A stretch of DNA of 35,131 nt, taken from the NCBI RefSeq assembly GCF_010365055.1, contig NZ_JAAFHA010000053.1:1-35131 (forward strand), given 5' to 3'. The stretch is from Rhodoferax sp. GTDB lineage: Bacteria > Pseudomonadota > Gammaproteobacteria > Burkholderiales > Burkholderiaceae_C. Below the pieces are notes generated by a model. It was not told the DNA's origin and searched no databases. It was given only the letters and a program-made list of their open reading frames with translations. The translations under genes were made by a program, and so were the position numbers. Shown here one piece after another: positions 1-29,599 of the stretch (the first letter of the stretch is position 1; each line of letters begins with the position of its first letter).

Positions 1-96
1 TTTCTGGAGTGTCCATGTGTCCACCTGAGTTGAAGTGGACACGATGCTCCTAAGAATTGCCGATCTCCGCAAGGTGACTTCGCCACCCGCTTACGT
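1..96. other. Foreign junction sequence upstream of the truncated biotin carboxylase
   Basis: The biotin-carboxylase reading frame stops resembling the family at about base 97 (residues E-F-F-F-I-E before the MNTRIQVEH motif), and a TGA lies in that frame at 31-33. The preceding bases hold an inverted repeat, GTGTCCAC (17-24) and GTGGACAC (35-42), and two close copies of GTGTCCA (10-16 and 17-23). This is the kind of structure found at ends of insertion sequences, so the block may be the terminus of a mobile element that removed the 5' part of the gene. I cannot name the element. Confidence 0.4.
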
Positions 97-651
97 GAGT
101 TCTTCTTTATTGAAATGAATACCCGCATTCAAGTTGAACATCCGGTCAGCGAATTGGTGACAGGCGTTGATTTGGTGCGTGAAATGCTGCGAATTGCGAT
201 GGGAGAGCCGCTCAGGTTCAAACAGGAACAGATCGTCCTCAAAGGGGCTGCGATCGAATGCCGCCTGAACGCGGAAGATCCAGAGCGCAACTTCATGCCC
301 AGCCCGGGAAAGCTGAGCGCGCTGCGCTGGCCAGGTGGACCAGGTGTACGGGTAGACACCCATGTGTACGCCGGATACACAATCCCGCCGTTTTACGATT
401 CTCTGTTGGCAAAACTAGCCGTATGGGACGAGGACAGGCCTGCCGCCCTGCAACGCATGCAACGAGCCCTGGCTGAAACAAGCATTGAAGGTGTCTACAA
501 CACCATTGCACTCCACCAGCAATTGCTGGCAGATCCGGCTGTCCAAAATGGGCAATTTCACACCGGCTACCTTGAGCAGTGGATGGCCCAGCGTGCGGCC
601 GAAAAAGCCCTGGCACTGACGTCCGAGCTGACAGCTGGATTGACTGTTTAA
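97..651 (+). pseudogene. Biotin carboxylase (AccC type), C-terminal fragment, 5' truncated
   Basis: The frame encodes the end of an ATP-grasp biotin carboxylase: EMNTRIQVEHPVSE (the loop with the conserved E, N and R of the ATP/bicarbonate site), AAIECRLNAEDP, then GPGVRVDTHVYAGYTIPPFYDSLLAKL, which holds the conserved catalytic-site arginine. Only about 180 of roughly 450 residues remain. The lost part includes the N-terminal domain and the ATP lid, so the product should be inactive. Any initiation would have to use the internal ATG at 115. In the intact operon the enzyme would carboxylate a biotin carrier and feed the two carboxyltransferase subunits encoded directly downstream. An alternative is that the 5' part lies elsewhere after a rearrangement. 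Confidence 0.8.
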
Positions 652-682
652 CCAACTTCGAGCCTTTACCTAAGGAACATCA

Positions 683-1567
683 ATGTCACTCCCTCCTGCA
701 CGATATTCATTTGGCGGCGACGAACACATCTTCGTGGAACTCAACCACGAGATGTCGCTGGAAGCGTTCTTCAAAGGCATGTCAATAACTAATGCCATTG
801 CGCAGCGAAAGATTGCCGGCGTGACTGAAATTTGTCCGGCCAATGCTTCCTATCAGGTCCGTTTTGACCCCGATCTGATTGCGCCGGACAGGTTGATGGA
901 GATTTTGAAATCAATTGAAATCGAGTTGGGCGACGGCGCGCTGGAACTCAATACACGCATCATCGAGATTCCCGTCTTTTACAACGACCCCTGGACCAAC
1001 GAAACGCAACAGCGTTTTCGTGAAAGGCATCAGGACCCCACTTCAACCGACCTCGAATATGGAGCACGCGTCAATGGCTACACGAATGTAGACGCGTTCA
1101 TCGCGGCGCATGCGGCATCGCCCTGGTTTGTCTCCATGGTTGGCTTTGTAGCGGGGCTGCCATTCATGTTTCAGATGGTTGAACGTGCCAAGCAGATTCA
1201 GGTCCCAAAATATCTCAGACCACGCACCGATACACCCAAACTCACGATTGGGCACGGCGGCTGCTTTGGCTGTATCTATTCTGTGCGCGGTGCGGGGGGC
1301 TATCAAATGTTTGGCATCACCCCGGCGCCAATTTTTGATCCGCAGCAAAGCCTGCCGTATGTCAAAGACTTCATGGTGTTTTTCCGCCCTGGAGACATTG
1401 TCAAATTCAAGCCCATAAACCGGTCTGAGTACGACGCTGCATTGGCAAAAGTGCAGGACGGAAGCTTCGACTTGCGCATCCGTGAGGTGAAGTTTTCACT
1501 GCAGGACTTTGTTAAAGATCCGAGCGCTTACAACCAACAATTGACGGAGACTTTGTATGGCAATTAA
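683..1567 (+). CDS. Biotin-dependent carboxyltransferase subunit, KipI/AHS1 (PxpB-like) family
   Basis: This 294-residue protein has the AHS1/KipI fold found in 5-oxoprolinase subunit PxpB and in the carboxyltransferase domain of urea carboxylase. Recognisable parts are GFVAGLPF (about residues 152-160), KYLRPRTDTP (about 175-184) and GGCFGCIYSVRGAGGYQMFGITP (about 191-214). It is longer than a typical PxpB (about 220-240) because of an insert containing DPWTNETQQRF near residue 100, which makes a urea-carboxylase-like N-carboxylase role more likely than plain 5-oxoprolinase. An AAGGAA ribosome site lies just before ATG 683. The end overlaps the next gene by 11 bp, implying translational coupling. 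The substrate is not evident from the protein alone. Confidence 0.85.
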   Translation: MSLPPARYSFGGDEHIFVELNHEMSLEAFFKGMSITNAIAQRKIAGVTEICPANASYQVRFDPDLIAPDRLMEILKSIEIELGDGALELNTRIIEIPVFYNDPWTNETQQRFRERHQDPTSTDLEYGARVNGYTNVDAFIAAHAASPWFVSMVGFVAGLPFMFQMVERAKQIQVPKYLRPRTDTPKLTIGHGGCFGCIYSVRGAGGYQMFGITPAPIFDPQQSLPYVKDFMVFFRPGDIVKFKPINRSEYDAALAKVQDGSFDLRIREVKFSLQDFVKDPSAYNQQLTETLYGN

Positions 1568-2534
1568 GGTACTACAACCTGGACTTGCAACCACCGTACA
1601 GGATGCCGGTCGAATTGGCTATTACCACTTGGGCATTCCGCTTTCAGGCGCGCTTGATCAGTACTCGTTCCGTGCTGCCAATCTCCTGGTCGGCAATCCG
1701 GAAGATGCCGCCACACTCGAGATCACGATGCTCGGCCCCAAGCTGGAGTTCATGCACGATGCCGCCATCGCACTGACTGGTGCGAACTTGCCAGCCAGGC
1801 TTGACGGCGTCTCCATGCCCGGCAACCAGGCCGTCGCTGTCAAGGCGGGCAGTGTCCTTAGTTTTGATTTTCTGAAAGACGGCGTGCGCGCATACCTCGC
1901 CGTAGCGGGTGGCATTGATGTGCCGGAGGTATTGGGCAGTCGCTCAACGTACACCTTGGGGGCCATCGGTGGTTTTTGTGGAAGAAAACTCCAAGCCGGT
2001 GATGTGTTGCCCGTGGGGGCTTTTCAGGGGCCATTGCACACAGGCAAAAAGCTGCCAGATCATTTGAAGCAAGCCTTGCCCAAGCAGGTGCAGGTTCGCG
2101 TTCTTCCCGGCTTGTATTTTCATTGGTTGACTCAGGCCTCTGGAAAGTCTTTTTTTGAAGATACATGGCGAGTGGGCCCCGAAGCGGACCGCATCGGCTA
2201 TCGATTCAAGCATGGCCGACCGCTGGAATTTGAACCCCGCGAACGCCCCTTTGGGGCTGGTTCTGACCCATCCAACATCGTCGATGCGGGTTATCCCATT
2301 GGTTCGATTCAAGTACCTGGCGGTCTGGAGCCCATCGTTTTGCATCGCGATGCCGTGTCCGGCGGTGGCTACGCCATGATTGGCACGGTCATCAGCGCGG
2401 ACATGGATGTTGTAGCGCAGTTGCAGCCAAATTTCCAGACTCAATTTGTCGCGGTTGACATGGCACAGGCCTTGAGTGCGCGCGCCAAACGCAATCAACG
2501 CCTAGCTGATTTGCGACGGGCCCTATTGGATTAG
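1557..2534 (+). CDS. Biotin-dependent carboxyltransferase subunit, KipA/AHS2 (PxpC-like) family
   Basis: This 325-residue protein carries the AHS2/KipA signature near its start (GLATTVQDAGRIGYYHLGIP then SGALDQYSFRAANLLVGN) and the later AYLAVAGGI and PLEFEPRERPFGAGSDPSNI segments. AHS1 and AHS2 proteins pair to form the carboxyltransferase half of urea carboxylase or the 5-oxoprolinase PxpBC subunits. Together with the upstream biotin carboxylase the layout is that of a split urea-carboxylase-like enzyme that carboxylates an amide nitrogen. Neither a biotin carrier protein (AccB) nor a LamB/YcsF subunit (PxpA) is in the window; both could lie further left. Length is normal and the gene looks intact. 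Confidence 0.86.
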   Translation: MAIKVLQPGLATTVQDAGRIGYYHLGIPLSGALDQYSFRAANLLVGNPEDAATLEITMLGPKLEFMHDAAIALTGANLPARLDGVSMPGNQAVAVKAGSVLSFDFLKDGVRAYLAVAGGIDVPEVLGSRSTYTLGAIGGFCGRKLQAGDVLPVGAFQGPLHTGKKLPDHLKQALPKQVQVRVLPGLYFHWLTQASGKSFFEDTWRVGPEADRIGYRFKHGRPLEFEPRERPFGAGSDPSNIVDAGYPIGSIQVPGGLEPIVLHRDAVSGGGYAMIGTVISADMDVVAQLQPNFQTQFVAVDMAQALSARAKRNQRLADLRRALLD

Positions 2535-2552
2535 GTTTTTTACATATTCCGG

Positions 2553-2571
2553 CAAGTAATGCCTTTACTTG
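2553..2571. terminator. Small hairpin between pxpC-like gene and the transporter genes
   Basis: CAAGTAA (2553-2559) and TTACTTG (2565-2571) form a perfect 7-bp stem with a 5-nt loop 19 bp after the upstream stop codon. No clear T-run follows, so it may be an attenuator or an mRNA-processing hairpin rather than a full terminator. Confidence 0.25.
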
Positions 2572-2635
2572 TCTTCCTCACCTTCGCGCTGGTGCGAAGT
2601 TTTTTCAACCTTGACTTTTGTTTACTGGAGCCTTC

Positions 2636-3706
2636 ATGAAAAAAATATCCGCACCCACCCTGCTCGCCGGTGTCTTGTTGACTGCCTCCTTCGCGGCCCA
2701 AGCGGCGAATTGGTACCCCTATGCGGCGGAGCAGACGGAGCCCGCGTTCTCTGACACAGGTGTGAAAAAACCTATCGACTACAGCCCACTGCCGAAGGCA
2801 TCAAAGAAATGGAAGCTCTGCGTTTCATTTCCCCACATGAAAGATGCCTACTGGCTGGGTGTTGACTACGGTGTGGTTGAGGAAGCCAAGCGTCTTGGTG
2901 TGTCGGCTCAGATACTCGAAGCCGGTGGCTATACCAACTTGAACAAGCAAATTTCGCAAATTGAGGATTGCGTCGCCGGCGGCGGTCAGGCTGTGGTTAT
3001 TGGCGGTATTTCTGCGGATGGCCTGGTCAATTTGGTCAAGTCACTCAAAGCCAAAAATATCCCAACCGTAGATGTCATCAACGGCATCAATTCTCCCGAC
3101 CTGACCGCAAAGTCGCTCGTCTCCTTCTACACGATGGGACAAGAGGCGGGCGCCTATTTGGCCAAAAAACATCCCGCTGGAGGCGCCAAGGCTGTAGTCG
3201 CGTGGTTTCCTGGACCAGCTGGCGCTGGTTGGGTTGAGGCCGCCAACAAAGGTTTCACTGAAGCTGTCAAGGGGAGCTCCCTGGAAGTGATGGCCCCGAT
3301 ATATGGTGATACAGGCAAAGAAGTCCAAGCCAAGTTGGTTGAGGATGCCTTGCAGTCGAACCCCGCCATCCGCTATATCGCAGGCACAGCAGTCACCGCC
3401 GAAGTGAGCCAAGGTATCGTGCGCGCGCGCAACTTGAAAGACAAAGTGCAAGTGATTTCGTTTTATTTGACCCCAGACGTCTACGCAGGCATTCAAAAGG
3501 GCACGATCATGGCGTCTCCCGCTGACGCGATGGTGATTCAAGGGCGCATAGCTATCGATCAAGCGGTGCGTGCCCTGGAAGGTAAGGACCTGATCAAGCA
3601 CGTCGGACCCAAGATTGTCACGATCGACAAAGCCAACTTGAAGCAGATTCGCCGTGACGACGTCTTGCCACCGGCATCATTCAAGCCATTGTTTGAAGTC
3701 AAATAA
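2636..3706 (+). CDS. TorT-like periplasmic sugar-type binding protein of an ABC importer
   Basis: A 356-residue precursor starting at ATG 2636 (GGAG ribosome site at 2627-2630). The first ~24 residues form a Sec signal peptide (MKKISAPTLLAGVLLTASFA, cleavage near AQA). The mature part is a type-I periplasmic binding protein related to TorT, with WKLCVSFPHMKDAYWLGVDYG near the start of the first lobe and a LNKQISQIEDCVAGG segment. TorT itself senses TMAO for the TorS kinase. Here no kinase is present, and the gene sits directly before a ribose-type ATPase and permease, so it most likely serves as the binding component of that importer. The ligand is unknown; the neighbours suggest a small amide or lactam. 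Confidence 0.82.
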   Translation: MKKISAPTLLAGVLLTASFAAQAANWYPYAAEQTEPAFSDTGVKKPIDYSPLPKASKKWKLCVSFPHMKDAYWLGVDYGVVEEAKRLGVSAQILEAGGYTNLNKQISQIEDCVAGGGQAVVIGGISADGLVNLVKSLKAKNIPTVDVINGINSPDLTAKSLVSFYTMGQEAGAYLAKKHPAGGAKAVVAWFPGPAGAGWVEAANKGFTEAVKGSSLEVMAPIYGDTGKEVQAKLVEDALQSNPAIRYIAGTAVTAEVSQGIVRARNLKDKVQVISFYLTPDVYAGIQKGTIMASPADAMVIQGRIAIDQAVRALEGKDLIKHVGPKIVTIDKANLKQIRRDDVLPPASFKPLFEVK

Positions 3707-3797
3707 AGAGAACCTGCCGTATGGGCAAGGTGCTTGTTGAGTTCACTTTTCTGGTGACATCAAAAATGACTTTGTTCAAACAGCAGGTTAACGTGAG

Positions 3798-5291
3798 ATG
3801 AGCGATGTTTTATTGACCATTGAAGGCCTGTCGAAGGAGTTTCCAGGTGTGCGCGCGCTGGATGGGGTGGACTTTGAACTGCTTGCAGGCGAGGTTCATG
3901 CCATATTTGGTGAGAACGGTGCTGGCAAGTCCACCCTGATTTCCATTATTGCCGGAGCGCAGCCGCAAGGCAGTGGAACAATCCGGATGCACGGCGAGGA
4001 ACTTCGATTTTCCTCCGTCGCTGATGCCAGGCGACATGGCATCAGCGCCGTTTTCCAAGAGTTCTCTTTGGCGCCTCATCTTACGGTTGAAGAAAATTTG
4101 TGTTTGGGGGAAGAACGACTTCATCAACGCTTCGGCCTGTTGCAGTTGTCAGCCATGTCGCGTCATGCAAGCGCGCTCCTGCAGCGACTGAATTTTGACA
4201 TTGATCCTCATAGAGTCGTTGCAACTCTGTCGCGCGCAGAGCAGCAGATGGTCGAAATCGCCAAGGCTTTGCGCGCAAAGCTGTCCGTGTTGATCCTCGA
4301 CGAGCCAACAGCATCGCTGACAGAAAGAGAAAGTGAGCAGTTGTTTGCAACGGTGCGAAGTTTGAAGCAACAAGGCGTAGGCATCATCTACATCACCCAT
4401 CGAATTCAGGAGATTAAACGCCTGGCCGATCGCGTCACTGTACTGCGTGACGGGAAACACATTGGTGTCGTCGATGCTGCGACGACCACTGAAGCCAAAC
4501 TCATTGAAATGATGGCTGGACGAACTGTCGAGAAAATTTATCCCTCCATTGCGGCAAATCCCGGACGCAATATTCTGGAACTTTCGCAAATGCGTGGCGG
4601 TGTCGGCATTGACGTAGACCACTTCGTTGCACGCGAAGGTGAAGTCGTTGGCGTTGCTGGCCTGGTCGGCTGCGGGAAATCAGAATTGCTGCGCATGGCT
4701 TTTGGTATTGAACCCATGAAGTCTGGCGTCGTCAAACTGGATGGGCAGACCATCAAAAAGCCGACGCCACGGCGCATGCTCGACGCCGGTGTTTTTTATC
4801 TTCCACCGGATCGTCGGGAAGAGGGCTTGATGCTGTCGGCCAGCACTGCCGACAACATCTCGCTCAACGCATTGACGCAGCAACCGATCCATTTCCGGTC
4901 CGGGTTTTTATCACTTTCCGCGGAGAGAACGGTAACTCGCGACATCGGTCGGCGGGTAGACATTCATCCGTCAAATTTGCCCCGTGCCACCGCGCTTTTA
5001 TCCGGCGGAAATCAGCAGAAAGTCTTGTTCGGCCGGGGTTTGACACGGTCCATCAAACTGTACATTTTTGATGAACCGACGGTGGGTGTCGATGTGGGTA
5101 CGCGCAGCGCAATTTATTACCTGATCAAAGAGTTGTGCGAAAAGGGCGCGGCGGTGATCCTGATTTCGTCTGATTTACCCGAAATTTTGCACCTGTCGCA
5201 CCGCGCCTACGTCATGCGCGCTGGTCGTATAGCAGCTGAAATCGATCGCAGTTGCCTCACCGAAGCGGCAGTGCTGCAGCATTTTTTTTAG
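3798..5291 (+). CDS. CUT2 (ribose/simple-sugar type) ABC importer ATPase, duplicated domains
   Basis: This 497-residue protein has the RbsA/MglA layout of two fused nucleotide-binding domains. The first has Walker A GENGAGKST (residues 38-46), a degenerate signature LSRAEQQMVEIAKAL and Walker B VLILDEPTASLT. The second has a Walker A variant GLVGCGKSE near residue 288, signature LSGGNQQKV near 399 and IFDEPTVGVDVG near 423. Imperfect sites in one domain are normal for this family. It powers uptake through the permease encoded 28 bp downstream. The start at 3798 follows TTAACGTGAG, a modest ribosome site. The substrate is probably not a sugar, given the metabolic genes on both sides. Confidence 0.9.
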   Translation: MSDVLLTIEGLSKEFPGVRALDGVDFELLAGEVHAIFGENGAGKSTLISIIAGAQPQGSGTIRMHGEELRFSSVADARRHGISAVFQEFSLAPHLTVEENLCLGEERLHQRFGLLQLSAMSRHASALLQRLNFDIDPHRVVATLSRAEQQMVEIAKALRAKLSVLILDEPTASLTERESEQLFATVRSLKQQGVGIIYITHRIQEIKRLADRVTVLRDGKHIGVVDAATTTEAKLIEMMAGRTVEKIYPSIAANPGRNILELSQMRGGVGIDVDHFVAREGEVVGVAGLVGCGKSELLRMAFGIEPMKSGVVKLDGQTIKKPTPRRMLDAGVFYLPPDRREEGLMLSASTADNISLNALTQQPIHFRSGFLSLSAERTVTRDIGRRVDIHPSNLPRATALLSGGNQQKVLFGRGLTRSIKLYIFDEPTVGVDVGTRSAIYYLIKELCEKGAAVILISSDLPEILHLSHRAYVMRAGRIAAEIDRSCLTEAAVLQHFF

Positions 5292-5319
5292 CCGGCCACG
5301 TCAATTAAGGTAATTCAGA

Positions 5320-6351
5320 ATGAGTTCAATCGTTCCCGAGAACAATCCGAGTCCAGCGCACAGATCCTCAGCTCGTGACTGGATCATGAAGATATTCTTG
5401 CATTGGGGTGTCATGCCCTTCCTGCTCGTGATAGCAGTCGTCACCTTCAGTCTGATGTCGTCCCGCTTTCTCACGCCCGAGAACTTGATCAATTTGTTTC
5501 GCCAGTCGGTGTATCTTGTACTGGTCTCCCTGGGTCAAATGCTGGCGCTGATTTCGGGCGGGTTTGACCTGTCAGTCGGCACCATTGTTGCCGTTTCATC
5601 CGTCGTATCCGCTTTGACGATGGGCGCTTTGGCCCTCAGTTTTCCTGATGCCATCTGGCTGGTGATCACTTTGGGGTGTCTGGCCGGTTTGGGGGCAGCC
5701 ATGTTGATTGGAATTGTCAACGGCGCAGGCGTGGCGGTGTTCGGCGTCTCGCCTTTCATCATGACACTTGGCATGCAGTCCATTGGTTTTGGCATCGCTT
5801 TGTTTTTGACGGCCGGTGTTCCTGTTTCGAACCTGCCGGATACCCTTGGAGATGTTTTCGGTTTTGGCGTGCTGCTTGGAGTTCCTGTGCCAATCTTGAT
5901 GATGCTGCTCATTCTGGCGTTGATGTTTGTTCTGCTGAATTACTCTGCGTGGGGCAGACATCTGTATGCCGTGGGTAGCAATCCAAAAGCAGCTTTGCTG
6001 TCCGGTATTCGAGTCAAGCCAGTCCTCATCAGCGCTTATGTTTTGTGTGCATTGATCGCCGGCGTATCAGGCTTACTGCTAACGGCAAGAACTGCGTCCG
6101 GGGATGCCAACCTGGGTGGGTCGATGGCACTTGAATCCATTGCCGCCTGTGTAATCGGTGGGGTTTCACTGCGGGGCGGCATTGGTCGACTGGAAAACGT
6201 CGTGTTGGGTGCGATATTTATCGGACTGGTGCAAAACGGAATGAATTTGGCGCAAATTGGCTCGTACCTGCAAATTGTCGTGCTCGGTGTGCTGCTGATT
6301 ATTGCCGTCGTCTTTGATCGTATTCGTCAGAAACGCCTATACCGGCTTTAG
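5320..6351 (+). CDS. CUT2-type ABC importer permease (RbsC-like)
   Basis: A 343-residue integral membrane protein with about ten hydrophobic segments and the family hallmarks SGGFDLSVGTIVAVSSVV (about residues 85-102) and MALESIAACVIGGVSLRGGIG (about residues 268-288). It would form the homodimeric inner-membrane channel for the preceding ATPase and the TorT-like binding protein. An AAGG element at 5308-5311 precedes ATG 5320. The gene ends 81 bp before the aminotransferase start, with no obvious terminator, so gabT may be cotranscribed with the importer. Confidence 0.9.
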   Translation: MSSIVPENNPSPAHRSSARDWIMKIFLHWGVMPFLLVIAVVTFSLMSSRFLTPENLINLFRQSVYLVLVSLGQMLALISGGFDLSVGTIVAVSSVVSALTMGALALSFPDAIWLVITLGCLAGLGAAMLIGIVNGAGVAVFGVSPFIMTLGMQSIGFGIALFLTAGVPVSNLPDTLGDVFGFGVLLGVPVPILMMLLILALMFVLLNYSAWGRHLYAVGSNPKAALLSGIRVKPVLISAYVLCALIAGVSGLLLTARTASGDANLGGSMALESIAACVIGGVSLRGGIGRLENVVLGAIFIGLVQNGMNLAQIGSYLQIVVLGVLLIIAVVFDRIRQKRLYRL

Positions 6352-6432
6352 GGCGACGCAACCCAGTAAGCCAACCTGGCAAAAGCGCACCATATTTATA
6401 TTGTTTTGAGTCTACCAACGCACTGGAATGAT

Positions 6433-7567
6433 ATGCAACGCGAATCTAACCTGAATAATGCTGCTTTGATGGCCCGCCGCCGGGCCACCATTCCACGCGG
6501 TGTTGGCCAAAGCCACGAAGTGTTCATTGCCCGCGGTGAAAACGCCGAAATCTGGGATGTGGAAGGCAAACGCTATATTGACTTTGCCGGCGGCATTGCC
6601 GTTCTCAATACCGGGCACTGCAACCCCACGGTGATCGCCGCCGTCAAGGCCCAGTTGGACCTCTACACCCACACCTGTTTCCAGGTGCTGGCCTATGAGC
6701 CCTATGTGGAGCTGGCCGAGCGCATCAACGCGCTGGCGCCCGGTGACTTCGCCAAGAAAACCATGTTTTTGAGCACCGGCGCCGAAGCGGTTGAAAACGC
6801 CATCAAGATTGCCCGTGCCTACACCAAGCGGGCGGCCGTTATTGCCTTTACCAGCGGCTACCACGGGCGTACGCTGCTCACGCTCGGCCTGACTGGCAAG
6901 GTGGCACCTTACAAGACCGGCTTCGGTCCGTTTCCGGCAGAAATTTTTCATGCTCAGTTTCCCAATGCGCTGCATGGTGTGAGCATCGATGAATCGATCG
7001 CCTCGATTGAATCGATCTTCAAGAACGATGTCGAGGCGAGCCGGGTGGCCGCCATCATTGTGGAGCCGGTGCAGGGTGAGGGCGGCTTCAATGTGGCGCC
7101 GCCCGAGTTTTTGCAGCGCCTGCGCGCGTTGTGTGATCAGCATGGCATCTTGTTGATCGCCGACGAGATTCAGACCGGCGCCGGTCGCACTGGCACCTGG
7201 TTTGCCATCGAGCAAAGTGGCGTGGAACCAGACTTGATCACGCTGGCCAAGTCGATGGCCGGTGGATTCCCGCTCTCGGCGGTGGTGGGTCGTGCTGACG
7301 TGATGGATGCTCCCGCGCCGGGTGGATTGGGCGGCACTTATGCGGGCAGCCCGATGTTGTGCGCCGCCGCCTTGGCGGTGCTGGAGGTGTTCAAGCAAGA
7401 AAACCTGCTGGAGCGCAGTTGCCAATTGGGCCTGCGCCTGAGCGCCAGCCTGAAACAAATGGCTGCCAGCCACCGCTGCATTGCCGATGTGCGGGGTCTG
7501 GGTGCCATGGTCGCGATCGAGTTGTGCAAGGGCGGCGATATCCATCAACCGGATGCTGACATGGCCA
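6433..7567 (+). pseudogene. gabT: 4-aminobutyrate aminotransferase, 5' part, interrupted by an insertion sequence
   Basis: This is a class-III PLP aminotransferase of the GabT type: FAGGIAVLNTGHCNP, FLSTGAEAVENAIKIARAYT (PLP phosphate region), IIVEPVQGEGGF, LIADEIQTGAGRTG and the PLP lysine in TLAKSMAGGFPLSAV (about residue 272). I prefer ATG 6433 (MQRESN) to the upstream TTG at 6406. The coding sequence is cut at 7567; the frame then reads into the element and stops at 7570-7572, giving a ~379-residue product. The missing 54 residues, found at 9508-9671, carry the small-domain arginine that binds substrate carboxylate. GabT transfers the amino group of GABA (or beta-alanine-like amines) to 2-oxoglutarate. 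The truncated protein is probably inactive. Confidence 0.93.
7564..7567. repeat. Left copy of the GCCA target-site duplication
   Basis: GCCA at 7564-7567 directly abuts the left inverted repeat and matches GCCA at 9504-9507 beyond the right inverted repeat. Keeping one copy restores the gabT frame as D-M-A-K-R-L-A. Confidence 0.75.
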
Positions 7568-9503
7568 CTTAAAGTCGACACTTCCCACCCCATTTTTCGT
7601 TCCTTGGCGGTCCCTGGGCAAATGAAATCAACGAGTTAGGCGAGTTTTTCGGCCGAAATTTTTTGAAAAGCTTGTAGTGGCACGTTTAGCATTAAAAGTA
7701 GTTTTTCTTTGATCTAATTTGCGATACACTTGCCGCCATGTTCATCAAAGTCACTCAATCAGGTGCCCGGCGTTATGCGCAACTGGTGGAGTCGTTCCGC
7801 AATGAGGACGGCAAACCCCGCCAGCGCACCGTGTGCACCCTGGGTCGCCTGGAGGATGGCGGCGAAGTCGACACCCTGATTGCCTCGCTGCAACGTGCCC
7901 GTGGCATCACGCCGGTCTCGTCTCCCCTTGATGGGTTGCGCTTTACCGAGAGTCGCCATGCAGGCGACGTCTGGGCCCTGTCTGAACTCTGGCGCTCTCT
8001 TGGGTTTGATGGCTTGGCGAGTGCTTGGCGCCGCTCTAAGACTGAGGTCGATGTGCTGGCGTGTCTGCGCGTCATGGTCTTCAATCGCCTGTGTGATCCA
8101 GGCAGCAAGCTCGGTGTGCTGCGCTGGCTGCAAACCGTAGCCCTGCCGGTTGGCGTTGTGAAAGACTTGCCGGAGCACCAACACCTGCTGCGGGCCATGG
8201 ATGTGCTCGACGAATACAGCGACACCCTGGGCGTCAGACTGGCAACACTCATGCGCCCCTTGATTGATCAAGACCTCTCCGTGGTGTTTTATGACCTCAC
8301 CACCGTGGAGGTCACCGGTCAGACTGACCTGGCAGATGATGTTCGAGCCTATGGCAGGGCCAAATCGGGTTTGGTGGAACGCCAATTCATGCTGTCTTTG
8401 GTGCAAACCTTCGAGGGTCTGCCCATCGCCCATGAAGTGCATCCCGGCAATACGGCAGAAGCCAAGACACTGCTACCCATGATCCGTGGTTTGCTTGAGC
8501 GCTACCCGCTCAAGCGCGTCGTGCTGGTGGCGGACCGGGGACTGCTCAGTGTCAGCAACATCGAGGAATTGGCCAAACTTCAGGCGAAGCTTAAAAAGGA
8601 CGGGCGTGATGTGGCGCTGGAATACATCCTGGCAGTGCCTGCGGCGCGATATGGTGACTTTGCCGACGACTTAAAACGTTTGAGTGCGGCACAAGCACCC
8701 GATCAAGAATGGTGTGCTGAAACAAAATGGCAGGACAACCGCCTGGTGGTGGCCCATGACCCTGTGGCGGCCGCGCGGCGCGGCCATGCGCGCGACAAGA
8801 CCATTGCGGAGTTGGTCGCCATGGGTCAGCAGTGCAGCGGCAAACTCGATGGACAAGATGCTGGCAAACGCGCCAAAGGGCGACCGATGTCGGACTCTGG
8901 CACCAAGGCGCGTTTTTATCACGCCGTCAAAGAAGTCCATATGGCGCATGTGATCAAGGTGGACTTGAAGGCAGAGCTGTTCAGTTACACGATTGACGAG
9001 GACAAGAAGCGTTATCTGGAGTTGCTCGACGGCAAGTTGCTGCTGGTGACCAATACGAATACACCGGCCACCGAGGTGGTGCAGCGCTACAAGAGTCTGG
9101 CCGATATTGAGCGCGGCTTTCGGGTGCTTAAATCCGACATCGAGATTGGGCCGGTGTACCACCGGTTACCCCAGCGGATTCGCTCGCACGCCTTGGTGTG
9201 TTTCATGGCGCTGATCCTGTACCGGGTGATGCGCATGCGGCTCAAGGCGGCCAATCGATCAGAGTCACCCAGCACACTGCTGGAACAGCTCAAACGCATT
9301 CACCAGCAGACCGCGCAAACAACGGACGGTAAAACTCTGACCGGGTTGACCGAAATGACGCCCGCTCAGAAGTCGCTGTTTGCCGCTCTGGAGTTGGCAC
9401 TACCCACACCCGCGGACCTGGTCAAACCCGTTTTGTAGTCTGCGCTTTGGACTCCGTTTCTAATGAAATCAAGGACTTGCGTGCAGGAAGTGTCGAACTT
9501 AAG
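7568..9503 (+). mobile_element. Complete IS1634-family insertion sequence inside gabT
   Basis: The 1936-bp element is bounded by terminal inverted repeats: left CTTAAAGTCGACACTTCC (7568-7585) and right, read inward on the minus strand, CTTAAGTTCGACACTTCC (9486-9503), matching at 16 of 18 positions. A 4-bp direct duplication GCCA flanks it. An 11-bp direct repeat AATGAAATCAA lies just inside both ends (7621-7631 and 9462-9472). One full-length DDE transposase fills the interior. The clean duplication, intact gene and exact restoration of the host gene on removal point to a fairly recent insertion. Family assignment is from the transposase sequence; a 5-6 bp duplication is more usual in this family, so the repeat boundary could shift by a base or two. 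Confidence 0.9.
7738..9438 (+). CDS. IS1634-family DDE transposase
   Basis: A 566-residue IS4-superfamily transposase of the IS1634 type. The N-terminus (MFIKVTQSGARRYAQLVESF) is typical of these proteins. Acidic catalytic motifs are visible: VVFYDLTTVEV (first Asp), VVLVADRGLLS (second Asp) and the YKSLADIERGFRVLKSDIEI block with the catalytic Glu (Y-(2)-R-(3)-E-(6)-K-like region). The frame is uninterrupted and full length, so the element may be active. It is read in the same direction as gabT and could supply read-through transcription to the downstream cupin and gabD genes. Confidence 0.95.
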   Translation: MFIKVTQSGARRYAQLVESFRNEDGKPRQRTVCTLGRLEDGGEVDTLIASLQRARGITPVSSPLDGLRFTESRHAGDVWALSELWRSLGFDGLASAWRRSKTEVDVLACLRVMVFNRLCDPGSKLGVLRWLQTVALPVGVVKDLPEHQHLLRAMDVLDEYSDTLGVRLATLMRPLIDQDLSVVFYDLTTVEVTGQTDLADDVRAYGRAKSGLVERQFMLSLVQTFEGLPIAHEVHPGNTAEAKTLLPMIRGLLERYPLKRVVLVADRGLLSVSNIEELAKLQAKLKKDGRDVALEYILAVPAARYGDFADDLKRLSAAQAPDQEWCAETKWQDNRLVVAHDPVAAARRGHARDKTIAELVAMGQQCSGKLDGQDAGKRAKGRPMSDSGTKARFYHAVKEVHMAHVIKVDLKAELFSYTIDEDKKRYLELLDGKLLLVTNTNTPATEVVQRYKSLADIERGFRVLKSDIEIGPVYHRLPQRIRSHALVCFMALILYRVMRMRLKAANRSESPSTLLEQLKRIHQQTAQTTDGKTLTGLTEMTPAQKSLFAALELALPTPADLVKPVL

Positions 9504-9507
9504 GCCA
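9504..9507. repeat. Right copy of the GCCA target-site duplication
   Basis: GCCA at 9504-9507 lies immediately outside the right inverted repeat and duplicates 7564-7567. Confidence 0.75.
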
Positions 9508-9671
9508 AACGGCTGGCCGCCGAGGCTACCCGGCGCGGGCTGATCCTGCTGACTTGCGGCACTTATGGCAATGTGGTTCGTATTCTGGTGCCGCTGACGG
9601 TCAGTGATGCCATCGTCGATGAAGGCCTGGCCATCATGGCGGCATCGCTGGCCGCGATTCAGGCCAGTTGA
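9508..9671 (+). pseudogene. gabT: 4-aminobutyrate aminotransferase, 3' part, separated by the insertion sequence
   Basis: These bases encode the missing GabT C-terminus: RLAAEATRRGLILLTCGTYG followed by NVVRILVPLTVSDAIVDEGL, ending at TGA 9669-9671. Joined to base 7567 the two parts give an uninterrupted 432-residue protein, the normal GabT size (about 425). A chimeric frame starting inside the right end of the element (from 9447) also reads into this segment, but nothing suggests that short product has a function. Confidence 0.93.
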
Positions 9672-9743
9672 CATTCTTGTACCCCTGGCATGTGACTGAC
9701 ATGGCGTCCCGTCGGCTGCCACCACCCACCCGTGATCCCCACC

Positions 9744-10058
9744 ATGACTCTTTCAAATCTATCAAAAGGCAAGATCGAACGCCCTCAGGCAGTGCCCACC
9801 GTGCAGGTGTCAAACGAGCACGTCGTCGTGACTGAATGGCGATTTGCTCCTGGCGCCGAAACTGGTTGGCATACTCATGGACACAACTATGTCGTTGTGC
9901 CTCAAACCAACGGTGAACTTCTGCTTGAAACGCCAGAGGGACAAATGATCGCGCCTTTGGTGGCCGGTCAGTCGTACGCGCGTACCGTCGGGGTTCAACA
10001 CAATGTCGTCAACTCATCCTCTCATGAGGTGGTCTTTGTTGAAATTGAAGTTCTGTGA
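9744..10058 (+). CDS. Small cupin protein, BauB-like (beta-alanine degradation family)
   Basis: A single-domain cupin of 104 residues from ATG 9744 (GTG 9732 is an in-frame alternative). It has the first cupin motif WRFAPGAETGWHTHGHNYVVVP (two metal-binding His and the following Tyr region) and the second motif around GVQHNVVNSSSHEVVFVEIE. The pattern resembles the BauB cupins that accompany beta-alanine/omega-amino-acid catabolic genes in Pseudomonas; their biochemical role is poorly known. Lying between gabT and gabD supports a part in the same pathway, perhaps as a ligand- or metal-binding accessory. Assignment to BauB is by remembered similarity, not a search. Confidence 0.75.
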   Translation: MTLSNLSKGKIERPQAVPTVQVSNEHVVVTEWRFAPGAETGWHTHGHNYVVVPQTNGELLLETPEGQMIAPLVAGQSYARTVGVQHNVVNSSSHEVVFVEIEVL

Positions 10059-10245
10059 CCGTCATTCTGGAAAACTCCAATACTTCCATTTGACCGAATA
10101 CTCCAATTCACTGACGCTGCCTGTGTGACGAATTTCGCTGCCACTTACGACAACGTCCTGATGATGCACCAGCCCGCTTTCTTAACCCGCCTGGCCCGCA
10201 AGCGATCCAACGGTCGTCAACATTTCAACCTTAACTCAGAGAATA

Positions 10246-11712
10246 ATGATCATGATGCAACTGAAAGACCCCTCGCTGTTTCGGCAGCAAGCTTATATCA
10301 ACGGTCAGTGGTGTAACGCCGACAGCGGCGAAACCTGCGCCGTCACTAATCCGGCCACCGGTGAAACCATCGGTACCGTGCCGAAAATGGGCACGGCCGA
10401 AACCCGCCGCGCCATCAAGTCGGCCGACAAGGCTTGGCGCAGTTGGCGCGAAAAAACCGGCAAAGAGCGCAGTGCCGTGATCCGTAAATGGAACGACCTG
10501 ATGCTGGCCAATGCCGATGATCTGGCCATGATCATGACGGTCGAGCAAGGCAAGCCGCTGGCTGAAGCCAAGGGTGAAATCGTTTATGCCGCCTCTTTTA
10601 TTGAATGGTTTGCCGAGGAGGCCAAGCGCGTCAGCGGTGACACACTGGCCTCGCCCTGGACGGACCGGCGCATCGTCGTCATCAAGCAGCCCATCGGCGT
10701 CTGCGCCGCCATTACGCCCTGGAACTTCCCGTCTTCGATGATCACCCGCAAAGCCGGCCCGGCGCTCGCTGCGGGTTGCCCGATGGTGTTGAAGCCAGCG
10801 CTGGCTACGCCCTATTCGGCACTGGCGCTGGCCGTGCTGGCAGAACGCGCTGGCGTGCCGCCAGGCATCTTCAGCGTATTGACCGGATCAGCCAGTGCCA
10901 TCGGCGGCGAGATGACCTCCAACCCCACCGTGCGCAAAGTTTCTTTCACCGGTTCCACCGAAATCGGCAGCATGCTGATGCAACAATGCGCCAAGACCAT
11001 CAAGAAGCTGTCGCTGGAGCTGGGCGGCAACGCACCGTTCATCGTGTTTGACGATGCCGATCTGGATGCGGCAGTGGAAGGCGCCATCATGTCCAAATAC
11101 CGCAACGCCGGCCAGACCTGCGTCTGCGCGAATCGTCTGTATGTGCAGGACGGTGTCTATGATGCCTTTGCGAAAAAGCTGGTCGTCGCCGTGGAAAAGC
11201 TCAAGGTCGGCAACGGCGTCGAGGCCGGCGTCACGCAAGGACCACTGATTGACGGTGCTGCCATCAAAAAGGTGGAACAGCACATCGCCGATGCGCTCTC
11301 CAAGGGCGGGCGACTTCTGACCGGCGGCAAGCGCCATGCGCTGGGACACAGCTTTTTCGAGCCGACCGTGATTGCCGACACCAGCCCCGACATGCTGGTC
11401 GCCCGGGAAGAAACCTTTGGCCCATTGGCCCCGCTGTTTCGCTTCAAGACCGATGCCGATGTGATCGCCATGGCCAACGATACCGAGTTCGGTCTGGCCA
11501 GCTATTTTTATTCGCGCGACATCGGGCGCATCTGGCGTGTCGCAGAAGGTCTGGAGAGCGGCATGGTCGGTATCAACACCGGCATTATTTCCAACGAAGT
11601 TGCGCCGTTTGGCGGGGTCAAACAATCCGGATTGGGGCGCGAAGGCTCAAAGTACGGGATGGATGACTACTTGGTGATCAAGTATCTATGCATGGGTGGT
11701 TTGGATAAGTGA
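10246..11712 (+). CDS. gabD: Succinate-semialdehyde dehydrogenase (NAD(P)+), GabD family
   Basis: A 488-residue aldehyde dehydrogenase closest in appearance to GabD. Motifs include ITPWNFPSSMITRKAGPALAAG (cofactor site), FTGSTEIG, SLELGGNAPFIVFDDADLD with the general-base Glu (about residue 258), and AGQTCVCANRLYV with the catalytic Cys (about residue 292) followed by a second Cys two residues later as in GabD. It oxidises the semialdehyde made by GabT to succinate. Three closely spaced ATGs (10246, 10252, 10255) leave the exact start open. The usual KPAS segment reads KPALATPYSALA here. It is separated from the cupin gene by 187 bp and may have its own promoter. Confidence 0.93.
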   Translation: MIMMQLKDPSLFRQQAYINGQWCNADSGETCAVTNPATGETIGTVPKMGTAETRRAIKSADKAWRSWREKTGKERSAVIRKWNDLMLANADDLAMIMTVEQGKPLAEAKGEIVYAASFIEWFAEEAKRVSGDTLASPWTDRRIVVIKQPIGVCAAITPWNFPSSMITRKAGPALAAGCPMVLKPALATPYSALALAVLAERAGVPPGIFSVLTGSASAIGGEMTSNPTVRKVSFTGSTEIGSMLMQQCAKTIKKLSLELGGNAPFIVFDDADLDAAVEGAIMSKYRNAGQTCVCANRLYVQDGVYDAFAKKLVVAVEKLKVGNGVEAGVTQGPLIDGAAIKKVEQHIADALSKGGRLLTGGKRHALGHSFFEPTVIADTSPDMLVAREETFGPLAPLFRFKTDADVIAMANDTEFGLASYFYSRDIGRIWRVAEGLESGMVGINTGIISNEVAPFGGVKQSGLGREGSKYGMDDYLVIKYLCMGGLDK

Positions 11713-14051: not shown

Positions 14052-14912
14052 ATGGCTGCCATGACCCTGCGTTCACGCTACTGGGCCGACCTGTCCACAC
14101 GGGACTTTGCCCAGCTGATTTCCAGCGGACAATCTGCGAAAACCATCGCGGTGCTGCCGGTGGCTGCCACCGAGCAGCATGGCCCGCATTTGCCCCTGAG
14201 TGTCGACACGGCGTTGGTGGACGGCATCGTGGCGGCGGCTTTGCCGCACTTGGCAGCAGACTTGAACGTGCTGTTCCTGCCGACGCAAGCGATCGGTTTG
14301 AGCCCGGAGCACGCGCGCTTTCCCGGCACCTTGACGCTCAAGAATGAAACCATCCTGCGGCTTTGGGCCGACATTGGCGAGTCGGTCGCGGCTGCCGGCA
14401 TCCAGAAGCTGCTGCTGTTCAATAGCCACGGCGGCAATGTCAGCGTGATGGACCTGGCGGCACGCGACCTGCGCGCGCGGTTTGACATGCTGGTGTACAG
14501 CGCCAGCTGGTTCAACTTGCCGCTGCTTGATGCGCAGGGGCAGGACGTCAACGCCTTGTTCAGCTTGGAGGAGCATCGCTTTGGCATTCATGCGGGTGAC
14601 ATGGAGACTTCCATGATGCTGGCGCTCGACCCCGCACGGGTAGACATGGCACAGGCGCAAGACTTTCATTCCACCTCGCAAGACCGGGCACAACAGTTCG
14701 CCATTTTGGGCAATGGCAAGAGCGCCAAGCTGGGCTGGCAAATGCAGGACTACAACCGCAACGGGGCGGTGGGCAATGCGGCGGCTGCTACTGCCGAGAA
14801 GGGACGAGCGCTGCTGGATGCTGCCGGGCGCAGCCTGGCGCGGCTATTGGCTGAGATGGACCAGCTGCCGTTGAGCACGCTGGTGTCCGGGCCTGCGCCA
14901 AGCGGCCGCTGA
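14052..14912 (+). CDS. Creatininase-family metal-dependent amidohydrolase
   Basis: A 286-residue protein of the creatininase/creatinine amidohydrolase family. Metal-ligand motifs are present: TEQHGPHLPLSVDT (Glu41, His43, Asp52), the FNSHGGNV loop near residue 124 and HAGDMETSMML with the conserved Glu near residue 183. Family members open cyclic amides (creatinine) or act in peptide or pterin maturation such as MftE and ArfB. The exact substrate here cannot be read from sequence. Start may be ATG 14052 or ATG 14061; neither has a strong ribosome site. Confidence 0.88.
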   Translation: MAAMTLRSRYWADLSTRDFAQLISSGQSAKTIAVLPVAATEQHGPHLPLSVDTALVDGIVAAALPHLAADLNVLFLPTQAIGLSPEHARFPGTLTLKNETILRLWADIGESVAAAGIQKLLLFNSHGGNVSVMDLAARDLRARFDMLVYSASWFNLPLLDAQGQDVNALFSLEEHRFGIHAGDMETSMMLALDPARVDMAQAQDFHSTSQDRAQQFAILGNGKSAKLGWQMQDYNRNGAVGNAAAATAEKGRALLDAAGRSLARLLAEMDQLPLSTLVSGPAPSGR

Positions 14913-23498: not shown

Positions 23499-24734
23499 TC
23501 AGCCGATGTAATTGAAGAGCGAGAGTTTTTGCACTTGTGCGTATGACTGCAGCGCGGCCTGGTAGCCGGTTTGCTGGTTCTGGAAGTCCGAGATGCCTTT
23601 GACCATGTCGAGGTCTTCGGCGCGCGAGCGGTCGGCCTCCAACTGGATGCTGCGCGCCTCCTGGTTGGACGTGATGCGGTCGGCGCGGTTGAGCAAGTCA
23701 CCGGCCTGGCCGCGCACCGCAGAGACGCGGCCCATGCCGATGTCGATGTTGCCCAGCGCCTGGCTGACGGCCTGGCTGGCAGCGGCGTTGCTGGGAGCGC
23801 TGCCAATGTCGCGAATGGCGTCGTCGAGGATGCTGAAGAGGCTGGGGCTGGGGTCGACTTGGACCGTGTCACCCGCCGTGGGTGTGCCTGTGATGGTGAG
23901 GGACAGACCCGGCATCTCTGTCACACCGAGGCCTTGGCTCGTGGTGTAACTCTTGGCGTTAACCGTAGCAATTGTGGTGGCCCCGTCCATGATTGTGTAG
24001 TCCACCGTGGTCAAACCGGTGGTCGTATCTACCGTGGTCGAGCCGAAGGTGAGGGTGTAGGACGCGCCAGTCGCTGCGGTGGGCGGATTCAATGTTACGG
24101 GGCTGGTTTTCAGATTGGTCGTGCCACCGCCCAGACTGACGTTGTAAACCCCGTCGCGCTGGGTTTGCAGCATAAACGCGCTGTCGCCATCGAGGGTAAA
24201 TGGAATTGCCACTTCACTGCTGGACGTTTGCCCCGGCAGCCCGTTGAAGGTGTAGTCGGCTGCCGCTGCTTGCGGTCCCACAAAGGGCTTGAGCGCGCTG
24301 CCCAAAGCGCTGAACAGGGGTTGCCCATTGCTGTCCTCGCGGTTGGCCAGCGACAAGACCTGATCGCGCAGACCTTGCAACTGGATGGCGATGGACTTGC
24401 GCTCGGCGGGGCCGTGCACGCCATTGCCAGAACTGACAACCAGTTCGCGGAAGTTTTGCAGCGCATCGGTGACATCGCCCAGGGTGCTCTCGGCCATGGC
24501 AATCGAGCCGCGCTGTGCCTCAAGCGCGCGCTGGTCGGTGGCGATGCGGCTGATGCGGGTCAGGGCCCGTTCCGCCTGGGCCGCGCCAGTCGGATCGTCG
24601 CTGGCGCGCACCACTTTCTTGCCGGAAGTCAGGTTTTCCTGCAGGTTTGACAGCGCCGATTGGCGCGCTGACAGATTGCGCAAGGCGTTGTCGTAGGTGT
24701 TGGCGGAACCGAGTCGGGTCGTTGCATTTGTCAT
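23499..24734 (-). CDS. flgL: Flagellar hook-filament junction protein FlgL (HAP3)
   Basis: A 411-residue flagellin-like junction protein. The conserved N-terminal helix region (RLGSANTYDNALRNLSARQS then LQENLTSGKKVVRASDDPTGA) and the C-terminal helix (YQAALQSYAQVQKLSLFNYIG) pair as in flagellins. The central part is a variable Thr/Gly-rich domain (about residues 170-290). It sits at the hook-filament junction with FlgK. The gene follows flgK by 26 bp and is last in the flg operon; its end converges with the MocR-type gene across a 41-bp gap. Confidence 0.95.
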   Translation of the reverse strand: MTNATTRLGSANTYDNALRNLSARQSALSNLQENLTSGKKVVRASDDPTGAAQAERALTRISRIATDQRALEAQRGSIAMAESTLGDVTDALQNFRELVVSSGNGVHGPAERKSIAIQLQGLRDQVLSLANREDSNGQPLFSALGSALKPFVGPQAAAADYTFNGLPGQTSSSEVAIPFTLDGDSAFMLQTQRDGVYNVSLGGGTTNLKTSPVTLNPPTAATGASYTLTFGSTTVDTTTGLTTVDYTIMDGATTIATVNAKSYTTSQGLGVTEMPGLSLTITGTPTAGDTVQVDPSPSLFSILDDAIRDIGSAPSNAAASQAVSQALGNIDIGMGRVSAVRGQAGDLLNRADRITSNQEARSIQLEADRSRAEDLDMVKGISDFQNQQTGYQAALQSYAQVQKLSLFNYIG

Positions 24735-24760
24735 GGTGTTTGCTCCTGGACGGCGTGGCT

Positions 24761-26758
24761 TCAGCGCAGGGTTTGAATCAGGGTGTCAAAAATGCCTTGC
24801 GCGATCTGGATCATCTTGGCCGACGCCTGGTAGGCCTGCTGGTACTGCAGCAGCTTGGCCGCCTCTTCGTCCAGGTTGACGCCCGCGACGCCCGTGCGGT
24901 CGCGTTCCAGATTGGCGGCGATCGAGCCCGAGATTTCAGCCGAGTAGTTGGCGCTCTGCGCGCGGATGCCAATTTGCGCGATCAGACTGGCATAGCCGTC
25001 GGTGAGCGCTGCGCCGTCAAACATCTTCGCATCGCGCAGGCCCATCATGGCGCCGGCATTGCCGGCGTTGAGGTTGCGAAAAGCGGCAGGCTGCTGCTGC
25101 ACGGTAAAGGTGTCACCGGCCTTGGGGACGCCTTGCAGCGTCAGCGACCATTGGCTCAAGGGGCTGGTGGCTGGCGCAGTACCCTCAATCGCCTGGCCTG
25201 GTGTGTAAGCAAATGTGGTGGCATTGGCTGTTGGCAACTCGTCGCTGCGGGTGTAGCTGTTGGCGCCGGTAAAGGTCAACACAACGGGTGTCAACGCGAC
25301 CGGGTTGCTGCGGGCCAGCAGGCTGCTGAGCTGCAGGCTCCCGGTGTTGCTGGTGCCCAGGCTGCCAGCTACCGGGCTGGCCACGGCCAAAGCCCGCGGT
25401 GTCGAAAACTCGGCGCTGATGTTGCTGGCCGAGGTGCTGAAGGGTTTGAGCAGAAAGCGATCACCGGCGGCGGGTGTGCCTGCACCACCCAACAGATTCA
25501 AACCATCAATGGCCTTGCCTGTATAAGGTCCTCCTGTGGGGTTTGTCGCCTCCTGGAACGAAAATACGCCTGCTGCAAAGCTGAAGTTTGTTAAGGCTCC
25601 ATCCGAGCGCCGGGTTACGCTGCCCTGGGTTGCCGAGGTGAAATTCACCTCGTAATCAGACGCAACAAATTTGGTCGCGTCGCCGATGTCCAGATTGAGA
25701 GAAGCCGGGACTGCCGGTAGTGCTGGCTTCGCATTCGTGGTGGCTGGCAGGACGTTGTTGGCAGTGAACACCATGGGTGTGAACAGGGCGCCGCCCGGAT
25801 TGCCATCCAGGTCCAGCCCCAGCTGATGCTGGTTGTTCATGCTGGTGCTGACGGCTAGCGTGAGCCGACCCAGCAGGTTGCGTCCTTCGACCAGGTCATT
25901 GTTCTGGAACCGCAGCAAGCCGGCCACCTCGCCACCGCCCAGTGAGCTTTCATCGAGCGTGATGAACTGCCCGCTGCGGTTCATCGTCAGCTTGCTCTTC
26001 AGGGGGTCGCCAAAGTCGTCCTTGCCGATGGAAAGCGGTGACACGGTGTTGCCCAGTACCAGGGCCTGGCTGCCTGCCAAAAAGATACCGACGGTGCCGT
26101 CGCTGGCGGCAATCGAGCTGGTTTGCACATACTGGTTGAGGTCGCGCACCAACTGGTCGCGCTGGTCCAGCAGATCGTTGGGGGGTTGGCCAGAGCCCTG
26201 GGTGCGCGCTATCTTGTCGTTGATTTCGGCAATGCTGTGCGCCAGGCTGTTGATGGTGCTGACTTTCTGGCCGAGCTCTTGCGTGACGCCAGCCTGCAAG
26301 TCGTCCAGATTTTGCGCGGCAGCCCGCATGCGTTTGGCGGTCTCGTCCACGCGCGTCAGCGCCACCGTGCGCGCGGTGAGATCGGTGGGTGCGTTGGCCA
26401 CGTCAGAGAACGCATTGAGCATGTCGTTGATGGCCGCACCGAGTCCAGCCGCGCCACCCGGGAAGACACCTTCGAGCTGCCTCAATTTGTCGGCCCGGGT
26501 GCTGTCGGCGGCGGAGGTGGAGCCGGCCAGTGCCGACTGGCGGGTCAGGAAGGCGCTGAAATTGCGCTGAATCGTCTGGACATCGACGCCTTTGCCGATG
26601 TAGCCGCTGCCGGTGTATTGGCCCTGCGTGGTTTGCAGGACCGCGCTCTGGCGCGAGTAACCCGGCGTGTTGACGTTCGCAATGTTGTTGCCTGCGGTCT
26701 GCAGCAGGACCTGGTTGGCCTGCAAGGCCCGCGTGCCGACGCTGAGAAGTCCGCTCAT
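24761..26758 (-). CDS. flgK: Flagellar hook-associated protein 1 FlgK (HAP1)
   Basis: A 665-residue hook-filament junction protein. The N-terminus has the rod/hook signature (LLSVGTRALQANQVLLQTAG then NNIANVNTPGYSRQSAVLQT) and the C-terminus has GVNLDEEAAKLLQYQQAYQA then SAKMIQIAQGIFDTLIQTLR. The middle is the exposed variable region. It joins hook (FlgE) to FlgL. The start ATG 26758 overlaps the flgJ stop (ATGA), indicating translational coupling. Length is somewhat above the enterobacterial form (about 550), as in many betaproteobacteria. Confidence 0.95.
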   Translation of the reverse strand: MSGLLSVGTRALQANQVLLQTAGNNIANVNTPGYSRQSAVLQTTQGQYTGSGYIGKGVDVQTIQRNFSAFLTRQSALAGSTSAADSTRADKLRQLEGVFPGGAAGLGAAINDMLNAFSDVANAPTDLTARTVALTRVDETAKRMRAAAQNLDDLQAGVTQELGQKVSTINSLAHSIAEINDKIARTQGSGQPPNDLLDQRDQLVRDLNQYVQTSSIAASDGTVGIFLAGSQALVLGNTVSPLSIGKDDFGDPLKSKLTMNRSGQFITLDESSLGGGEVAGLLRFQNNDLVEGRNLLGRLTLAVSTSMNNQHQLGLDLDGNPGGALFTPMVFTANNVLPATTNAKPALPAVPASLNLDIGDATKFVASDYEVNFTSATQGSVTRRSDGALTNFSFAAGVFSFQEATNPTGGPYTGKAIDGLNLLGGAGTPAAGDRFLLKPFSTSASNISAEFSTPRALAVASPVAGSLGTSNTGSLQLSSLLARSNPVALTPVVLTFTGANSYTRSDELPTANATTFAYTPGQAIEGTAPATSPLSQWSLTLQGVPKAGDTFTVQQQPAAFRNLNAGNAGAMMGLRDAKMFDGAALTDGYASLIAQIGIRAQSANYSAEISGSIAANLERDRTGVAGVNLDEEAAKLLQYQQAYQASAKMIQIAQGIFDTLIQTLR

Positions 26759-28826: not shown

Positions 28827-28859
28827 GAATGTGTCCCCTCGGCACTATTCTCATCAGCT

Positions 28860-29591: not shown

Positions 29592-29599
29592 GCGGCGCC

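Follow-up and report, generated by a model that had tools for sequence, protein, structure and literature searches.

This report concerns a gene cluster of Rhodoferax sp. that lies at 97..11712 of a stretch of 35,131 nt, hereafter the window (GCF_010365055.1, contig NZ_JAAFHA010000053.1, positions 1–35,131; all coordinates refer to the window). The cluster is the 3′ part of an operon with the full order LysR / PxpA-BCCP-BC-KipI-KipA-SBP-ATPase-permease-GabT-cupin-GabD, where BCCP denotes biotin carboxyl carrier protein, BC biotin carboxylase and SBP substrate-binding protein, and this operon is cut twice. We consider it reasonably likely that a split biotin-dependent carboxylase and the hydrolase PxpA open a cyclic amide, here probably to gamma-aminobutyric acid (GABA) or a near homologue, and that a TorT-like CUT2 transporter imports the substrate. 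The system is a biotin-dependent, urea-carboxylase-like version of PxpABC-type cyclic amide hydrolysis, and its gene set is widespread yet little-studied. By analogy with urea amidolyase, BC and BCCP would load CO2 onto biotin at the expense of ATP, giving carboxybiotin on BCCP, and KipI/KipA, acting as a split urea-carboxylase-type carboxyltransferase, would transfer the carboxyl group to the ring nitrogen (or to the lactim oxygen). PxpA would then hydrolyse the activated ring, and the resulting carbamate of the amino acid would decarboxylate to an omega-amino acid. The most likely product is GABA, and GabT and GabD would then convert it to succinate.

Core operon and carboxyltransferase type

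An earlier note on this DNA had listed the C-terminal part of BC, KipI, KipA, the TorT-like SBP, the CUT2 ATPase and permease, GabT, a cupin and GabD as collinear genes, and all of them are present on the + strand in that order. The conservation of the core was assessed in the 80 best of at least 547 stretches from named genomes that encode a KipI relative, a set that is biased to close relatives; these loci, designated by L numbers, were used since a class-wide sample intended for unbiased neighbour frequencies yielded a match in one genome besides the window's own among 370. BC and KipA each accompany KipI in 79 of the 80 loci, PxpA in 76, BCCP in 73 and LysR in 68, so that accB and pxpA, sought beside BC in relatives following the earlier note, were found there. 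The arrangement is not due to chance, because the core recurs in 80 loci. In all six relatives measured, as in the window, KipI and KipA overlap by 11 bases, and BC and KipI overlap by 4 bases in three of the six. Neighbouring genes were called with a home-made codon-usage caller, whose output may be in error on start positions and on small genes.

The distribution of KipI in the family and class samples is patchy, with matches in 4 of 299 family genomes at E ≤1e-30 and in 2 of 370 class genomes at E ≤1e-60, the window's own genome being included in both counts, and a plasmid search returned one weak partial match. The protein family is nevertheless large (at least 7526 matches at E 1e-30 or better, out of 8000 scored candidates), and its members carry conflicting names, such as urea carboxylase, allophanate hydrolase and 5-oxoprolinase subunit B family. 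No description of the operon was found among the matches listed for titles and abstract starts of openly licensed literature (CC0, CC BY, CC BY-SA), although this does not prove that none has been published.

The type of the carboxyltransferase is indicated by its KipI-like subunit (CT_C_D; 683..1567, +). Among solved structures, it is best matched by K. lactis urea amidolyase in the urea carboxylase region, with which its residues 4–276 align, and its conserved lysine, K176, aligns with position 1605 of chain 5i8i of that enzyme (counted by hand from the alignment). A passage of PMC5770610 gives Lys1605 as most likely the essential general base of the K. lactis enzyme. The motif PKY[LV][RS]PR, which includes this lysine, occurs in 83 of 83 KipI proteins (the 80 loci, the window and two further genomes). 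When these were aligned with nine other CT_C_D proteins of the genomes studied, two from long frames (1302 and 1252 aa; urea-carboxylase-type) showed TKY and so retained the lysine, whereas arginine replaces it in all seven classical PxpB-type proteins. The biotin-dependent carboxyltransferase postulated in the earlier note is therefore borne out as a type, and the window's KipI is, judged by its sequence, of the biotin-dependent urea-carboxylase type. Profile scores were also obtained for both subunits. KipI and the KipA-like subunit (CT_A_B; 1557..2534, +, with the 11-base overlap) fall below the PxpB equivalog TIGR00370 (72.6 bits vs a cut-off of 145.55) and the PxpC equivalog NF045499 (236.3 vs 500), respectively, and KipA passes TIGR00724 (288.2 vs 230.2). 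TIGR02712, with its whole-chain cut-off of 1303.85, is matched in part only, by the BC piece (152.7 bits), KipI (105.4) and KipA (250.3).

BC, BCCP and the carboxyltransferase are encoded in one operon, with BC being interrupted in the window's genome. An EVMK motif, which we take to be the biotin site, is present in 74 of the 74 BCCPs called. Biotin genes occur near the core as well, bioB in 16 of the 80 loci and BioY in five (one member of each was confirmed). Biotin synthesis genes adjoin the cluster in loci of Burkholderia and Pseudomonas (L028, L059, L062–L068, L071 and L072; L086, L087 and L089).

Accessory neighbours and candidate substrates

Genes for GABA conversion recur next to this core. 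GabT is found in the cluster in nine of the 80 loci in addition to the window, and in 8 of the 18 SBP loci in which 2 kb or more could be read past the importer; the three cluster GabTs scored all pass TIGR00700. The order Perm-GabT-cupin-GabD is common to the window and L058, and Perm-GabT-GabD is found in four Variovorax loci (L033, L044, L049 and L050, the GabD of L050 having been overlooked by the gene caller and detected by tblastn). L060 shows SBP-ATP-Perm-GabT-cupin-PxpA, and L070 shows CapB-CapA-cupin-GabT. The cupin of the window belongs to the same family as the cupins called in five of the 80 loci, which stand beside GabT or CapA. At L019:16914-17369, GabT is followed by a gene for a Rid-family protein (TIGR00004, 143.7 bits).

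A second group of neighbours consists of caprolactamase genes. CapA/CapB pairs flank the core in five of the 80 loci (L061, L070, L074, L076 and L083), and of these ten proteins eight were scored, all of which pass the 1000-bit caprolactamase equivalog cut-offs. Among 41 hand-picked genomes, which include those of all five CapA/CapB loci, CapA at 58% identity or more is present in 10; it lies within 10 kb of a cluster KipI in five genomes, and a close CapA lies elsewhere in five of the other 36. The share of CapA near KipI is inflated because the genomes were hand-picked, and since three of the five loci are from related Hyphomicrobiales, about three independent events are represented. By our own arithmetic, the probability that a gene falls by chance in a given 20-kb stretch is about 0.4% for a genome of 5 Mb. 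These neighbours point to lactams as the substrate class, which we regard as well supported. An AraC-type regulator family accompanies CapA/CapB in L074 and L083, and another HyuA-type gene is present in L084 and L085 (the HyuA and HyuB of L084 by Pfam). Given a cyclic amide, we assign about an even chance to 2-pyrrolidone or a simple derivative, with delta-valerolactam and further lactams or cyclic amides sharing the rest; 2-pyrrolidone is thus the leading candidate, but it is a good guess only. A narrower claim, tentative and more likely wrong than right, would make the core a biotin-dependent lactamase, the first of its kind, in which a dissociated urea-carboxylase-like enzyme would N-carboxylate gamma-butyrolactam (2-pyrrolidone) and PxpA would open it to GABA.

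The importer of the window comprises the TorT-like CUT2 SBP (2618..3706, +; start possibly 2636), an ATP-binding cassette (ABC) transporter ATPase of the CUT2 type (3798..5291, +) and its permease (5320..6351, +). The SBP scores 177 bits to TorT and 512 bits to PDB 4yhs; of the curated TorT models, it passes NF008185 (418.2 vs 200) and misses TIGR02955 (296.9 vs 310). Its gene adjoins those of the CUT2 ATPase and permease, not a trimethylamine N-oxide (TMAO) reductase system. Among the 80 loci, 27 have the TorT-like SBP, 36 a cytosine/purine-permease-like protein, none both and 17 neither. The name of the latter permease is tentative, given its weak Pfam scores: the three members scored against the cut-off of 23.5 gave 20.3, 22.4 and no match.

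Several observations weigh against the lactam-to-GABA reading. The earlier note had regarded homologous clusters without gabT/gabD as contrary to its proposal, and such clusters are largely what was found: in 71 of the 80 loci the part that was read contains no GabT, and the same is true of 10 of the 18 readable SBP loci. Its inclusion of GabT and GabD in the cluster stands in part, in that both recur with the core in tight operons of several lineages, and fails as a rule for the loci at large. L060, which has GabT, shows no BC beside KipI. In the close relative Rhodoferax STA_46 (L012), whose KipI is 91% identical, the genes past the importer are different ones, and gabT-gabD lies on a separate contig. 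Furthermore, the closest relative of the window's GabT (87%) is a non-cluster GabT of another genome, beside a transporter that looks polyamine-type by eye, and the GC content is 53.6% in the core-importer part as opposed to 60.5% in gabT; the adjacency of core and gabT in the window may therefore be young. The replacement of the importer by a weakly cytosine/purine-like permease in 36 loci makes a wider substrate range possible. Molybdenum hydroxylase genes (xanthine dehydrogenase family) take the place of GabT past the importer at L007:3975-7748 and L081:16256-20855, where they could convert an N-heterocycle to a lactam. An amidase gene is found near the core in four of the 80 loci (L037, L041, L076 and L085), as is a polysaccharide-deacetylase-like gene (L037, L041, L076 and L088), and the ring on which the core acts may differ from host to host. 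A CobW-type GTPase-like gene (by eye) is seen near the core in L037, L041 and L080.

Phylogenies bear on the same point. A GabT tree of ten cluster copies and 13 other GabTs from 15 hand-picked genomes requires five changes of the cluster label, at least four of which are forced by well-supported branches. On the KipI tree, a quick tree without bootstrap, the GabT label (nine rows, L070 apart) requires seven changes, at least four of them forced. Such changes may be gains or losses on either tree; we read them as GabT having joined the operon several times, with some losses perhaps among them. A fixed place of GabT and GabD in the operon was thus rejected by the neighbour counts, the GabT tree and the L012 arrangement, and the two genes are a recurrent accessory outside the core.

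Four other explanations were weighed against the opening of a lactam. In the first, the same chemistry would serve a biotin-dependent 5-oxoprolinase, converting 5-oxoproline to glutamate, with GabT and GabD being incidental. The PxpA of L011 passes the subfamily cut-off NF003814 (297.7 vs 226), and 5-oxoproline is present in all cells, as stated in a portion of PMC13274462. In addition, a CT_C_D search found no second PxpB-type protein in the window's genome, which leaves room for 5-oxoproline as the substrate there, nor in five of the 19 other genomes tested. Yet KipI and KipA both miss the PxpB and PxpC equivalog cut-offs, and in the 20 hand-picked genomes tested, whose cluster KipIs score 123–140 bits on PF02682, an additional CT_C_D relative of 198–259 bits coexists in 14, the six without it including the window's. 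Glutamate, moreover, requires neither GabT nor GabD, yet both accompany the core in several lineages. We consider this explanation unlikely.

A similarly low probability is given to a core acting on hydantoins, cyclic imides, pyrimidine-like or other N-heterocycles, next to which a rearrangement would have placed the window's gabT-cupin-gabD as unrelated genes. The variety of neighbours described above (the weakly assigned permease in 36 loci, the few molybdenum hydroxylases, and the amidase and deacetylase-like genes in four loci each) is in keeping with it, as are the divergent GC content of the window's gabT and its non-cluster nearest relative. The GabT orders in L058, the four Variovorax loci, L060 and L070 are, on the other hand, hard to ascribe to coincidence. 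Less probable still is a urea- or guanidine-type carboxylase working on an acyclic compound (e.g., ureido- or guanidino-butyrate), from which carboxylation and hydrolysis would release GABA. It would suit the urea-carboxylase type of the carboxyltransferase and the GABA-converting neighbours, but the hydrolase of the core is PxpA, and lactamase genes recur beside the core. Six of the 20 hand-picked genomes encode an allophanate hydrolase above the TIGR02713 cut-off, always on a contig other than that of the cluster KipI, and the window's genome is not among the six. Finally, an ordinary acetyl-CoA carboxylase, as the curated names of the L011 BC (797.8 vs 686, NF009471) and BCCP (123.7 vs 87, NF005457) would have it, was rejected as highly improbable because the adjoining carboxyltransferase is KipI/KipA, and PxpA is present in 76 of the 80 loci.

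The interrupted operon in Rhodoferax sp.

The operon of the window's strain has been interrupted at two places. At the first, an IS (insertion sequence) end occupies 1..94 and the 3′ part of the BC gene follows at 95..651 (+), where 97–627 correspond to residues 285–462 of the homologue in L011 (Rhodoferax sp. Chersky.3_6). The upstream genes LysR, PxpA and BCCP, together with BC residues 1–286 (28795–29652, at the contig end), are found at 26556–29652 of contig C147 (in L108) of the same genome. LysR, PxpA and BCCP of this contig are 93%, 94% and 96% identical to those of L011, whose operon is uncut over the extent of its contig. An 8-base duplication closes the BC part on C147 and opens it in the window, beside matching inverted IS ends; of the two contig ends that were read, neither contains the body of this IS.

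At the second place, gabT is split by an element of the IS1634 family (7573..9497, +, outer limits approximate), whose transposase (7738–9438) scores 350 bits on NF033559 against a cut-off of 100 and has three more matches in the genome, one of them partial. The 5′ part of gabT (6433..7572, +) and its 3′ part (9498..9671, +) correspond to residues 1–377 (6433–7563) and 379–432 (9507–9668) of the intact 433-aa GabT in L058. Because the BC and gabT pieces align to intact homologues, with the shared 8 bases and inverted IS ends, the window holds the 3′ part of one twice-cut operon. The 5′ piece of GabT passes TIGR00700 (518.8 bits vs 506.65) and falls below four narrower GabT models (NF005985, NF005692, NF005272 and NF007308). 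A small cupin gene (9732..10058, +; Cupin_2 at 21.8, weak against a cut-off of 27.2) and gabD (10246..11712, +) complete the operon, the latter encoding a succinate-semialdehyde dehydrogenase that passes the NADP-dependent model NF008415 (860.5 vs 828).

The catabolic route is probably inactive in this strain. With gabT interrupted and no other match to it in this genome exceeding 35% identity, the strain may have lost GABA transamination entirely. GC content amounts to 53.6% over 1–6351, 60.5% in gabT, 58% in cupin-gabD and 62–63% over 12380–35131, by which the core and importer part (1–6351) looks horizontally acquired. Elsewhere in the window, a creatininase-family amidohydrolase gene (14052–14912; PF02633, 240.9 bits) lies 2.3 kb past gabD, and a block of flagellar genes occupies 23499–34063 on the − strand (a flagellin-domain protein and FlgK by Pfam, the remainder by eye).

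Relation to known systems

If the core opens small lactams, a second chemistry, namely biotin-driven carboxylation, would be added to lactam breakdown, with a bearing on the monomers of nylon-4 and nylon-5. OplAB is described in a section of PMC11033972 as strong on delta-valerolactam and not effective on gamma-butyrolactam; the 2-pyrrolidone reading, if true, would thus provide a dedicated bacterial route for a lactam that OplAB, according to that section, barely attacks. An excerpt of PMC3199775, from 2011, also raises without deciding it the question whether split carboxyltransferases of the urea-carboxylase type cooperate with other biotin carboxylases, and the present operons are a direct candidate for such cooperation.

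Among known systems, the PxpABC 5-oxoprolinase (B. subtilis; pxpTABC in C. glutamicum) likewise combines PxpA and a KipI/KipA pair in one operon for an ATP-costing opening of a cyclic amide, as proposed here. It differs from the present system in that the latter has BC and BCCP in the operon, a KipI with the urea-carboxylase lysine, scores that miss the PxpB/PxpC cut-offs, another importer, and GabT/GabD. Urea carboxylase and urea amidolyase share with it BC, BCCP and a homologous carboxyltransferase with the general-base lysine, and activate an amide nitrogen before hydrolysis, as we propose for this core. Urea amidolyase is a single chain, whereas separate proteins are found here and PxpA replaces allophanate hydrolase. 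The TorT protein and PDB 4yhs belong to the same binding protein family as the window's SBP, which sits in an importer operon.

Similarity of purpose is seen in the ATP-dependent lactamases CapAB/OplAB, which also lead from a lactam to an omega-amino acid, presumed here, and on through an aminotransferase and a semialdehyde dehydrogenase; their enzyme family is unrelated to this core, of which they are a neighbour in five of the 80 loci. In P. jessenii, the partners of the caprolactamase are an omega-aminotransferase and a semialdehyde dehydrogenase, two enzymes that the authors liken to GabT and GabD, and the caprolactam-induced proteins of this organism include a cupin encoded elsewhere (parts of PMC6061476). 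Lastly, the nmpABCDEF pathway for N-methylpyrrolidone, as outlined in a portion of PMC12866759, likewise takes a five-membered lactam to succinic semialdehyde and succinate, but employs an enzyme of the N-methylhydantoin amidohydrolase type and an amino acid oxidase in place of the biotin-dependent carboxylation, PxpA and GabT proposed for the operon described here.

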